A DNA stretch of 64,000 nucleotides from contig NC_008011.1 in assembly GCF_000055945.1 (NCBI RefSeq), forward strand, positions 248,001 to 312,000. The letters are read 5' to 3'. Origin of the DNA: Lawsonia intracellularis PHE/MN1-00. Its GTDB lineage: Bacteria > Desulfobacterota > Desulfovibrionia > Desulfovibrionales > Desulfovibrionaceae. Made by a program: the position numbers and the translations under genes. The notes beneath the pieces are model-generated. The model made no database searches. It saw nothing but the letters and a program-made list of their open reading frames with translations, and was not told the origin of the DNA. Below are positions 56,286 through 59,782 of the stretch, piece after piece. The first letter of the stretch is position 1. Each line of letters starts with the position of its first letter.

Positions 56286-57062
56286 ATGGATCTTTCTATC
56301 ATTGTTATTGGCGCTTCTGGTCGTATGGGAAAAACAATTATTCAAGTTGCACAGGAGCAAGGTATTATTATTGATGCTGTAATAGATCGTCCTACTCGTC
56401 TAACATCTTTAGCATCATATAATATAGCTAGTGATAGTGAACCTGATAAAATTTTTTCAAGGTATCCTCAAGCAGTTGTCATTGATTTTACCACACCAGA
56501 AACATCTATATCTATGGCTCAAGTTGCTCAAAAATATGGTAATCCTATTATAATAGGGACCACAGGATTTACACTAGAACAATTTGATACACTTGAAACA
56601 TTAGCAAAAACATCCCGAATCTTTTGGTCTCCTAATATGAGCATTGGCATTAATGTACTACTTAAAACTTTACCTCAAATGGCACAAATCTTAGGAAATG
56701 AATATAATATAGAGATAGTAGAAGTACACCATAATAAGAAAAAAGATGCACCAAGTGGTACTGCAATGAGAATAGCAGAAACATTAAGTACTTCTCGCCA
56801 TTGGGACCTTGAAAAAGTAGCTTGCTATAATAGAGAAGGTATTGTAGGTGAACGACCTCAAGAGCAAATTGGTATACAAACAATCCGAGGAGGAGATGTT
56901 GTAGGAGTTCATACAATATACTTTATTGGACCAGGTGAACGTATTGAAATAACACATCAAGCAGATTCTCGAAAAAACTTTGCACAGGGCGCATTAAAAG
57001 CTGCAGAGTGGATCATAAAACAAAAAGCAGGAAGGCTTTATACCATGATGGATATCATATAA
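56286..57062 (+). CDS. dapB: 4-hydroxy-tetrahydrodipicolinate reductase
   Basis: NAD(P)H-dependent step in diaminopimelate and lysine synthesis, essential for peptidoglycan. The 258 residues have the nucleotide-binding GASGRMGKTI, the IDFTTPETS region, TTGF, SPNMSIGINVLLK and the catalytic EVHHNKKKDAPSGTAMR. AGGAG precedes the start. nadE begins directly after the stop. Confidence 0.97.
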   Translation: MDLSIIVIGASGRMGKTIIQVAQEQGIIIDAVIDRPTRLTSLASYNIASDSEPDKIFSRYPQAVVIDFTTPETSISMAQVAQKYGNPIIIGTTGFTLEQFDTLETLAKTSRIFWSPNMSIGINVLLKTLPQMAQILGNEYNIEIVEVHHNKKKDAPSGTAMRIAETLSTSRHWDLEKVACYNREGIVGERPQEQIGIQTIRGGDVVGVHTIYFIGPGERIEITHQADSRKNFAQGALKAAEWIIKQKAGRLYTMMDII

Positions 57063-58640
57063 ATGAATACAAATATAGCTCTATTACAATTACATACTAT
57101 AACAGGAGATATTATAGCAAATACACAAAATATTCTGCAACAAGTAAGTAAAGCAAAAAAAGATGGAGCTACAGTATGTATCACTCCTGAACTCAGTCTC
57201 TGTGGCCATCCAGACCTGCATGAAATACCAACAATAATTTCTACCTGTATCAATTCTCTTCAGCAGATAGCAAAAGAGTGTAATGGTGGACCATCGATTA
57301 TTGTAGGAAGTATTGAAACAACACCTACTAATATATATAATACCACTTTTCTTATACAGAATGGACAAATCCATACACTATGCAAAAAGCCTTTTACTCA
57401 ATTTTATCCTTCTATAAAAAAAGAAGAGTATATTCTAATTAATAATAATAATAATAATGGATTCTGTTTTACTAGTATAAATAAACAGTTATTCCTTATA
57501 GTTACAGGATATAAAACACTAATCAATTATGTATGTAATAAAATAATCTATCAAAACGAACAATTAAAGAAAGTAGAAGCTATACTTTGTCCTTCTTCAG
57601 AACCATTTATTGCTTCGCAAATCCCTCATTTTTTTTATGAGCTAACGTCAATATCTGACCAACTAAATAAACCTCTATATTTTTGTAACCAAGCAGGTGA
57701 AGACAAAAACTATATTTTTTTAGGAGGTAGTCAATGTATTAATTCTCAAGAAACAAAAAACAATCAATCTCTACTTTTTCAAGAAAATTACATAGTTGTA
57801 AAAAATCATTCATCTGTTTCTTTAAAAGATATGTCCTTTAACTCTAATAAGTTATTATGGGAAGCTCTTATCCATGGAATCCAACAGTATGTGAAAAAAA
57901 ATGGATTTTCAGATGTTGTTTTGGGACTTTCTGGTGGTATAGATTCTTCAATTGTAGCAGCCCTAGCGGTAGAAGCATTGGGAGAACATCGTGTACATGG
58001 TATATTAATGCCATCTCCTTGGTCAAGCGAAGGAAGTATAACTGATGCAGAGCTGTTAGCTAATAATTTAGATGTAAAAACATATTTGCTTCCCATTCAT
58101 ACATTAATAGATAGTTTTACTCATAGTCTTTCAGAACTTTTTATAGGATATCCCCCAGATGTTACAGAAGAAAACATTCAATCTAGAATTCGAGGGGTAC
58201 TTCTTATGGCTATTTCTAATAAATTTGGATGGATGGTTCTATCAACAGGAAATAAATCTGAACGAGCTGTTGGCTACTGTACATTATATGGAGATACATG
58301 TGGTGGTCTTGCTCCTATAGGAGATCTATATAAAACTGAAGTTTACCACTTAGCCCAATGGTATAATCAATCAAAACAAAAAGACATTATTCCTACTAGT
58401 GTATTAACAAAGCCACCATCTGCAGAACTCCGTCCAGGCCAACTTGATCAAGATAGTCTTCCACCATATAAAGAACTTGACTTTATTCTTCAAATGTTAC
58501 TCTCAAAAAATCCAACTAATATAGACCAAGAACTTCTTAACAATCCTAAACTAAATGATATAAAAAGGCTTATACAAAAAAATGCTTTTAAACGTATGCA
58601 AGGACCACCAAGTCTTGTTATTAGTAATTTCCCATTATAG
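57063..58640 (+). CDS. nadE: NAD+ synthetase with a degenerate glutaminase domain
   Basis: Converts nicotinic acid adenine dinucleotide to NAD. The 525 residues resemble the glutamine-dependent form: an N-terminal carbon-nitrogen hydrolase domain (to about residue 250) and a C-terminal synthetase. The synthetase is intact: VVLGLSGGIDSSIVAALAVEALG, STGNKSERAVGYCTLYGDTCGGLAPIGDLYKTEVY. In the amidase the Glu of TPELSLCG and a Lys (CKKPF) are present, but the usual ICED-type motif with the nucleophile Cys reads LFLIVTGYKTL, so the Cys appears lost. Six Asn from an AAT tract lie just before it. The protein probably uses free ammonia. It starts at the base after the dapB stop. Confidence 0.92.
   Translation: MNTNIALLQLHTITGDIIANTQNILQQVSKAKKDGATVCITPELSLCGHPDLHEIPTIISTCINSLQQIAKECNGGPSIIVGSIETTPTNIYNTTFLIQNGQIHTLCKKPFTQFYPSIKKEEYILINNNNNNGFCFTSINKQLFLIVTGYKTLINYVCNKIIYQNEQLKKVEAILCPSSEPFIASQIPHFFYELTSISDQLNKPLYFCNQAGEDKNYIFLGGSQCINSQETKNNQSLLFQENYIVVKNHSSVSLKDMSFNSNKLLWEALIHGIQQYVKKNGFSDVVLGLSGGIDSSIVAALAVEALGEHRVHGILMPSPWSSEGSITDAELLANNLDVKTYLLPIHTLIDSFTHSLSELFIGYPPDVTEENIQSRIRGVLLMAISNKFGWMVLSTGNKSERAVGYCTLYGDTCGGLAPIGDLYKTEVYHLAQWYNQSKQKDIIPTSVLTKPPSAELRPGQLDQDSLPPYKELDFILQMLLSKNPTNIDQELLNNPKLNDIKRLIQKNAFKRMQGPPSLVISNFPL
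57441..57458 (+). repeat. (AAT)6 microsatellite in nadE
   Basis: Six AAT units in frame, encoding six Asn in the amidase part of nadE, about 14 residues before the place where the glutaminase Cys is expected. Confidence 0.9.
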
Positions 58641-58734: not shown

Positions 58735-59415
58735 CTAAGATTCTGTTTTATTGGAAATAATACTTCTTTTTTTTCTTAAGCTGTCTCTTAACCAATCATA
58801 CCATACTTGTAACCCTTCTCCTGTACGGCAGGAAAGACTAATGATCTCTAAAGGCTCATTTAACTTACGTGCATGTTGTGTAGCTTTCTCTATACTAAAA
58901 TTAACATAAGGCAATAGATCTATCTTATTAAGAATTAATACTCCTGCACGATGGAATAAAAGAGGGTATTTCTCTGGCTTATCATCTCCTTCAGTTACAC
59001 CAAGAACGGCAACAATAGCATCCTCTCCACAATCAAACTCCGCAGGACAAACAAGATTTCCTACATTTTCAATAAATAAGATATCAATTTCATTAAGGTT
59101 AAGAGATGTAAGGGCTTCCATAATCATATTACTATCTAAATGACACCCTCCATCTGTATTAATTTGGACAGCTTTTACACCAGTAGCAGCAACTCTTTTT
59201 GCATCATTATCTGTCTGTAAATCACCTTCAATAACAGCCATTCTAAACTCAGATGAAAGATCACTTAAAGTTCTTTCAAGTAAAGACGTCTTTCCAGCGC
59301 CAGGAGAACTTATAATATTAAGAGTTAAGATATTATGCTCTGCAAATTGCTTTTTTAACATAGCTGCAAGTTTACTATTCACTTCAAGAACATTACGTAC
59401 CACAGGTATTTCCAT
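58735..59415 (-). CDS. hypB: Hydrogenase maturation GTPase HypB
   Basis: GTP-dependent nickel delivery to [NiFe]-hydrogenase, together with HypA. The 226 residues have the P-loop SSPGAGKTSLLE, the nickel-site pattern INTDGGCHLDSNM, IENVGNLVCPAEFDCGED and the NKIDLLPY specificity motif. The N-terminal CxxCGC metal site and His-rich stretch found in some HypB are absent. hypA is 10 bp upstream. The hydrogenase structural genes are outside the window. Confidence 0.96.
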   Translation of the reverse strand: MEIPVVRNVLEVNSKLAAMLKKQFAEHNILTLNIISSPGAGKTSLLERTLSDLSSEFRMAVIEGDLQTDNDAKRVAATGVKAVQINTDGGCHLDSNMIMEALTSLNLNEIDILFIENVGNLVCPAEFDCGEDAIVAVLGVTEGDDKPEKYPLLFHRAGVLILNKIDLLPYVNFSIEKATQHARKLNEPLEIISLSCRTGEGLQVWYDWLRDSLRKKRSIISNKTES

Positions 59416-59425
59416 TAACTTACTC

Positions 59426-59782
59426 CTATTCTACTTCAAGATGTTGAATATAAAATTCTCGACCTGTCTCAACATTATATGCCACCTCTTTTTTGCAAGA
59501 AGGACATGTAATAAAAAAAATCTTTTGTTTATCTTCTGGGGTAAATAGAGACAAACAGTTTGAACATCGAAGCATAAGAGGAATTTTTTCTATTTCTAGT
59601 ATTGCTCCTTCAAGACTTGTTCCTTCAGTAAAAATTTTAAAAGCAAATTGTAATGAGTCAGGAACAATATTTGTAAGCTCACCATAACAAACCTTTACAC
59701 GTTGAAGCTTATTGACTCCATTCTTTGACATTTCTTCCTGAATAATAGAAAGTATACCTGTAACTAATGACATTTCATGCAT
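59426..59782 (-). CDS. hypA: Hydrogenase maturation factor HypA
   Basis: Nickel metallochaperone. The 118 residues begin with MHEMS, whose His2 binds nickel, and hold a zinc site CSNC...CPSCKK near residues 73-97. The C-terminus ends in FYIQHLEVE. The length is standard. It is divergent from the TPR gene, with 244 bp between them. Confidence 0.96.
   Translation of the reverse strand: MHEMSLVTGILSIIQEEMSKNGVNKLQRVKVCYGELTNIVPDSLQFAFKIFTEGTSLEGAILEIEKIPLMLRCSNCLSLFTPEDKQKIFFITCPSCKKEVAYNVETGREFYIQHLEVE

Follow-up and report, generated by a model that had tools for sequence, protein, structure and literature searches.

The nadE locus of Lawsonia intracellularis encodes a fused NAD synthetase

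The window analyzed here is a stretch of 64,000 nucleotides (248001-312000 of its contig) from the L. intracellularis genome, which comprises 1,719,014 bases in four contigs. The gene order within the window is uvrB (from 52171), ligA (from 54221), dapB (56286..57062, forward strand) and nadE (57063..58640, forward strand), followed on the opposite strand by hypB and hypA (58735..59782). The dapB gene serves as the anchor for this locus in congeners, and nadE begins at the next base after its stop codon. The nadE gene, the genome's only gene for an NAD synthetase, encodes 525 amino acids plus a stop (coding residues 57063-58637); all nadE coordinates below refer to the forward strand.

In the encoded protein, an N-terminal nitrilase-type domain, matched only in part by Pfam CN_hydrolase, is fused to an NAD synthetase domain. 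The model of the fused enzyme, PRK13981, gives the window NadE a score of 470 bits, compared with a cut-off of 479. The best solved match is 5kha (E = 7.6e-82), which also is the best solved match of the AlphaFold2 model (TM 0.74), in which a two-domain fold is predicted with a pTM of 0.80.

The glutaminase half lacks the nucleophile and other conserved residues

The glutaminase domain, delimited by profile score and conserved columns, spans residues 4-250 (57072..57812) and is in an open frame throughout, though the Pfam CN_hydrolase match covers only residues 5-102 (profile positions 2-102 of 256). A profile of family glutaminase domains whose Cys-Glu-Lys triad is intact (n = 101) scored the window domain at 102 bits and a relative with Gly in place of the Cys at 315 bits. 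We also compared the domain at the 34 columns that reach 95% conservation or more among 127 intact relatives, here called near-invariant. Of these, 20 (59%) are retained in the window protein, whereas each of the 127 relatives retains at least 85%.

The profile alignment and the conserved columns show that the catalytic Glu (E43, 57189..57191) and the catalytic Lys (K109, 57387..57389) are retained. A sequence-only reading of the window had proposed that the nucleophile is lost from a Cys-free IVTGYK stretch. In the 101-domain profile alignment, this stretch (residues 146-151) places T148 (ACA, 57504-57506) in the Cys column and G149-Y150 under the invariant Glu-Asp, such that T148-G149-Y150 (57504..57512) replace Cys-Glu-Asp, as the proposal had it. 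Of the triad, Glu and Lys remain, with a Thr in the Cys column by both profile and spacing. The poly-Asn insertion that the same reading had placed upstream of IVTGYK is likewise present; six AAT codons (N127-N132, 57441..57458) follow the catalytic Lys and precede the nucleophile segment, and they stretch the Lys-to-nucleophile spacing to 39 residues from a modal 36. Two further losses were found. In the YRE loop, as defined in PMC6946656, the second Glu is replaced by K120 (57420..57422), an assignment that comes from reading YDVFDE of intact relatives against YPSIKK in the profile alignment, and the Arg of the SASPF..R segment, conserved in 116 of the 127 relatives, is a Phe. Given that the losses are scattered along the domain, a local base-calling error does not explain them.

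The sequence-only reading had named an alignment with a Cys at the catalytic position as evidence against its claim, and plain MAFFT provides one. In four MAFFT alignments C158 (57534..57536, in NYVC-NK) falls in the Cys column, while the profile and the spacing give T148. On this alignment the glutaminase might be alive, with C158 as the nucleophile after compensating indels and glutamine still in use. Retention of E43 and K109 fits this possibility, and ungapped block scores are similar for the T148 and C158 registers. The AlphaFold2 model speaks for neither register, having a pLDDT below 50 over most of residues 113-164 and an input alignment already in the C158 register. Spacing, however, separates the two registers. 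K109 and T148 are 39 residues apart (35-45 in relatives) and T148 lies 33 residues from the proline of SPF (28-40 in relatives, with a single outlier of 88), whereas the corresponding distances for C158, 49 and 23, both fall outside the ranges of the relatives. The C158 register thus requires about 14 extra residues before the nucleophile and about 15 fewer after it, and Asn-Lys would follow C158 where Glu-Asp is invariant. Together with the loss of the YRE-loop Glu and of the conserved Arg, a short docking tail, and congeners that dispense with the domain (both described below), these features make a living glutaminase very improbable, and C158 was rejected as the catalytic Cys on spacing. 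We prefer the T148 register because spacing, rather than local similarity, favors it. Both registers entail the loss of the CED motif, of the YRE-loop Glu at K120 and of the Arg of SASPF..R, and the conclusion therefore does not depend on this choice: judged from its residues, the window glutaminase domain very probably is catalytically dead.

The synthetase half is conserved and ends in a short tail

The NAD synthetase domain, delimited by Pfam and conserved columns, covers residues 263-525 (57849..58637), with SGGIDS at residue 290. It is an N-type ATP pyrophosphatase domain with the SGGxDS motif. Pfam NAD_synthase matches it with 250 bits over its full length (profile positions 2-241 of 242), and 89% of the near-invariant synthetase columns are retained, bearing out the earlier description of this half as intact. 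Eight such columns are lost, half of them at the extreme C-terminus.

The C-terminal tail, counted from FKR, has 17 residues (58587..58637). In complete two-domain relatives it has at least 28, except for 21 in genome G033; in complete single-domain forms it has 13-24 in six of seven, and 31 in genome G300. An extended C-terminal loop that contacts the glutaminase domain is a signature of NAD synthetases that use glutamine (PMC3376133), and the 17-residue tail of the window NadE does not amount to such a loop.

Three congeners encode the synthetase alone at the same locus

At the same locus in three congeners (G047, G073 and G006), a synthetase-only NadE is encoded directly after dapB. The Met codon of nadE overlaps the dapB stop in G047 and G073, and in G006 nadE starts about 30 bases past dapB. 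The G047 genome, of 3.6 Mb, also has hypB and hypA downstream of nadE. Neither tblastn nor six-frame translation revealed a glutaminase remnant upstream of the congener nadE genes, on which grounds a frameshift hiding the domain was rejected, and a query with the glutaminase domain gave no match across the three genomes.

In the synthetase tree, the window protein and those of the three congeners form a clade (99/90) nested among two-domain enzymes, indicating that the single-domain state is secondary. The secondary loss in these congener proteins (L044, L045 and L046) conflicts with the complete separation of fused and unfused enzymes that has been published.

NAD synthesis and nitrogen supply in L. 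intracellularis

Both nadD and nadA were found in the genome; nicotinic acid adenine dinucleotide (NaAD) is therefore presumably made and NadE needed. We considered whether the whole nadE gene might be decaying, with NAD being imported from the host. Some translocases of the ATP/ADP translocase class carry NAD. The ATP/ADP translocase gene is highly transcribed (PMC3463550). Nevertheless, the conserved synthetase core, the intact frame, the presence of nadA and nadD and the retention of the synthetase in all three congeners leave this explanation with hardly any likelihood.

A separate, non-homologous glutaminase subunit could in principle serve the window NadE. Two-subunit NAD synthetases do exist in Thermus, though with a nitrilase-type glutaminase subunit (PMC3376133). 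A CN_hydrolase search of the genome returned lnt and nadE only, and hence no separate nitrilase-type glutaminase gene; a search for such a free-standing partner had been suggested by the sequence-only reading. With lnt as the one other CN_hydrolase gene and a docking tail this short, we regard a partner subunit as highly unlikely.

Profile searches of the genome, which is 99.75% complete, gave no match for Amt, GlnA or PF00120. A type III glutamine synthetase query also gave no match in this genome, in a search that had no positive control; PF00120 does detect the type III enzymes of congeners. The genome is thus without a detected glutamine synthetase of any type or ammonium transporter, and the organism would depend on imported glutamine. 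Two glnHPQ glutamine-uptake operons have been described in L. intracellularis (PMC3463550).

Collectively, we place the probability at roughly 85% that the window NadE is a fused two-domain NAD synthetase whose glutaminase is dead and degenerating and whose synthetase half uses free ammonia. The synthetase half would adenylate NaAD, and the adenylated intermediate would be amidated with free ammonia directly, as in single-domain NadE, with no channeling from glutamine. Even glutamine-dependent enzymes accept free ammonia (PMC6946656), and ammonia is the in vivo substrate of single-domain NadE (PMC3376133). That the enzyme is independent of glutamine and uses ammonia in vivo we infer strongly from these features. 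A possible reason for the relaxed constraint is that ammonia would be plentiful and undrained without GlnA, while glutamine needs to be imported; NadE and glutamine synthetase are known to compete for ammonia, and a glnA mutation compensates for a weak NadE (PMC3376133). In lineages where ammonia is ample and GlnA competes little or is missing, the glutaminase may have become dispensable.

Glutaminase loss recurs among the Desulfovibrionaceae

We surveyed NadE across the family, with genera denoted g1 (the genus of the window) and upward. Domains in which the Cys is replaced by Gly while Glu and Lys are retained were found in g8, g11, g34 and g17 and in extra copies in g19, and Cys-to-Ala domains in g2 and g35. 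In g39, g42, g12, g33 and part of g40 the core segment is absent from the alignment, with N- and C-terminal parts variably kept, and, as in the three congeners, the glutaminase domain is absent altogether from G084, G122, G140 and one copy in G300. The nadE of G030 (L126), an incomplete genome (64%), has the reverse lesion; the Cys is kept, and Glu and Lys are changed to Asn and Thr. In the nadE of G033 (L116, genus g33), a long repeat rich in Asn and Ala replaces the nucleophile segment, paralleling the AAT tract of the window. Low-complexity expansion is thus found at the same site in the window and in the separately decayed G033 domain.

On an RpoB tree, built from ORFs chosen by blastp, g1 forms a clade with g12, g39 and g42 (96/91), and all NadE proteins sampled from it are either decayed or single-domain. 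This clade includes genomes of 3.2-3.7 Mb, and the domains in the sister genera, with genomes of up to 3.7 Mb, are more decayed than that of the window. The sister of the clade is g40 plus g26, whose sampled members on the RpoB tree are intact; a decayed group is nested within g40. Neither g33 nor the genera with Cys-to-Gly domains belong to this grouping. Death of the glutaminase is recurrent in the family, with at least four losses provided that intact triads, once lost, do not return, an assumption on which the count rests, given that unordered parsimony needs just two changes.

The sequence-only reading had viewed the window NadE as an intermediate stage of reductive evolution. The loss of the domain by three congeners at the same locus is in line with an intermediate stage, but the loss is not a private reductive step; it is clade-wide, extends to the 3.2-3.7 Mb genomes and has occurred separately elsewhere. 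The family survey rejects the loss as a peculiarity of a reduced genome: it is older than this species, ancestral to a wider clade and does not follow genome reduction, and intracellular life alone is not its cause.

The intact NadE copies L023, L109, L101, L115, L119, L132 and L233, from g19, one g34 genome and the g40 genome G174, cluster together and apart from the vertical copies of their genera. This clustering suggests that intact nadE has spread horizontally among relatives with dead ones.

We compared the state of NadE with the glutamine synthetases of 149 genomes, classified by hand by E-value, with a strong PF00120 match read as type I and weak, partial matches (about 1e-20, frames of about 600-930 amino acids) read as type III. 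Among genomes with a type I enzyme, 89 have an intact NadE and two (G001 and G033) do not, whereas among those with type III alone, 12 have an intact NadE copy and 31 lack one. Confounded as it is by phylogeny, which may reduce the pattern to few events, the comparison places most glutaminase deaths in lineages that have no type I glutamine synthetase. In g40 and g26, which lack type I GlnA, the triad nonetheless is mostly intact, indicating that GlnA loss is permissive for glutaminase death but not sufficient.

Selection on Cys-free glutaminase domains

As mammalian CPS1 does with its own, the window NadE might keep the dead domain for a non-catalytic role (in assembly, regulation or the entry of ammonia) and not be in the process of losing it. 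We assessed constraint by the ratio of dN in the glutaminase half to dN in the synthetase half; several dS values exceed 1, and only dN ratios therefore were usable. The pairs were drawn from other genera, as no near relative keeps the decaying domain of the window. Pairs with Cys-to-Gly or Cys-to-Ala domains had ratios of 0.58-1.05, intact pairs had 0.48-2.14 and pairs with a deleted core 1.01-3.33, indicating that Cys-free domains are constrained like intact ones and that core-deleted domains mostly are under looser constraint. In several genera the Cys-to-Gly domain equals or exceeds its synthetase in conservation, though the low ratios in g19 partly reflect a fast synthetase half, L189 being without some SGGxDS residues.

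The strong conservation of these Cys-free domains in other genera supports a retained role, as do the open frame across the entire window domain and the decayed domains of g39, g40 and g42, which keep both N- and C-terminal parts despite having lost the Lys-Cys core. For the window protein itself, the 59% of near-invariant columns, the Asn run, the shortened docking tail and the complete absence of the domain from three congeners count against such a role, which we consider unlikely here, though a good deal less so than a living glutaminase. A dead and degenerating domain remains the preferred reading of the window NadE. The Cys-to-Gly domains of g8, g11, g34 and parts of g19 may instead be pseudo-glutaminases under selection for a non-catalytic function, such as glutamine sensing or ammonia guiding, a tentative possibility that we consider less likely than not.

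Extra NadE-like genes of g19, namely L189 (in G272), L190 (G300), L154 (G056) and L155 (G094), have a conserved Cys-to-Gly domain and a synthetase half that is missing conserved residues. The second NadE beside these copies is an intact two-domain enzyme in G056, G094 and G272 and synthetase-only in G300. In these extra copies, the pseudo-glutaminase seems to be what is conserved.

Discussion

The window NadE resembles the fused glutamine-dependent NAD synthetase (type F NadE; PRK13981/NF010588; solved as 5kha and 4f4h) in domain order, full-length homology and predicted fold, but differs from it in being without the nucleophile and several other glutaminase residues, in its shorter C-terminal loop and in a score below the family cut-off. 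It descends from the fused family, yet with neither the complete triad nor the C-terminal loop it should not be counted among the functional enzymes of that family. With single-domain, ammonia-dependent NadE (type N), it shares a predicted chemistry, the direct use of free ammonia, but it descends from a two-domain form and still encodes the degenerate domain. The synthetase-only NadE of the congeners are secondary derivatives, unlike the ancestral type N. Two-subunit NAD synthetases differ in having a separate nitrilase-type glutaminase gene. The closest analog in logic is mammalian CPS1, an amidotransferase with a glutaminase-like domain that has lost its Cys (Ser294 in human) and with free ammonia as its substrate (PMC4655335). 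The CPS1 domain, however, is of the class I type and stably retained, whereas that of the window NadE is nitrilase-type and decaying, and is deleted in congeners.

No account of a fused NadE whose glutaminase is dead turned up in the open-license papers searched. NAD synthetases have been sorted by the presence of a glutaminase domain or subunit, with the fused enzymes fully separate from all others in the synthetase tree (PMC3376133). Counter to this separation, the fused clade has secondarily given rise to synthetase-only enzymes. A fused enzyme that very probably is independent of glutamine and these secondary synthetase-only forms together make the presence of the gene an unsafe guide to the nitrogen donor, and annotation pipelines would label many such enzymes as glutamine-hydrolyzing. 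The graded states within the family, from intact through Cys-to-Gly and core-deleted to domain gone, offer a test bed for what a dead amidotransferase domain costs and what purpose it serves.
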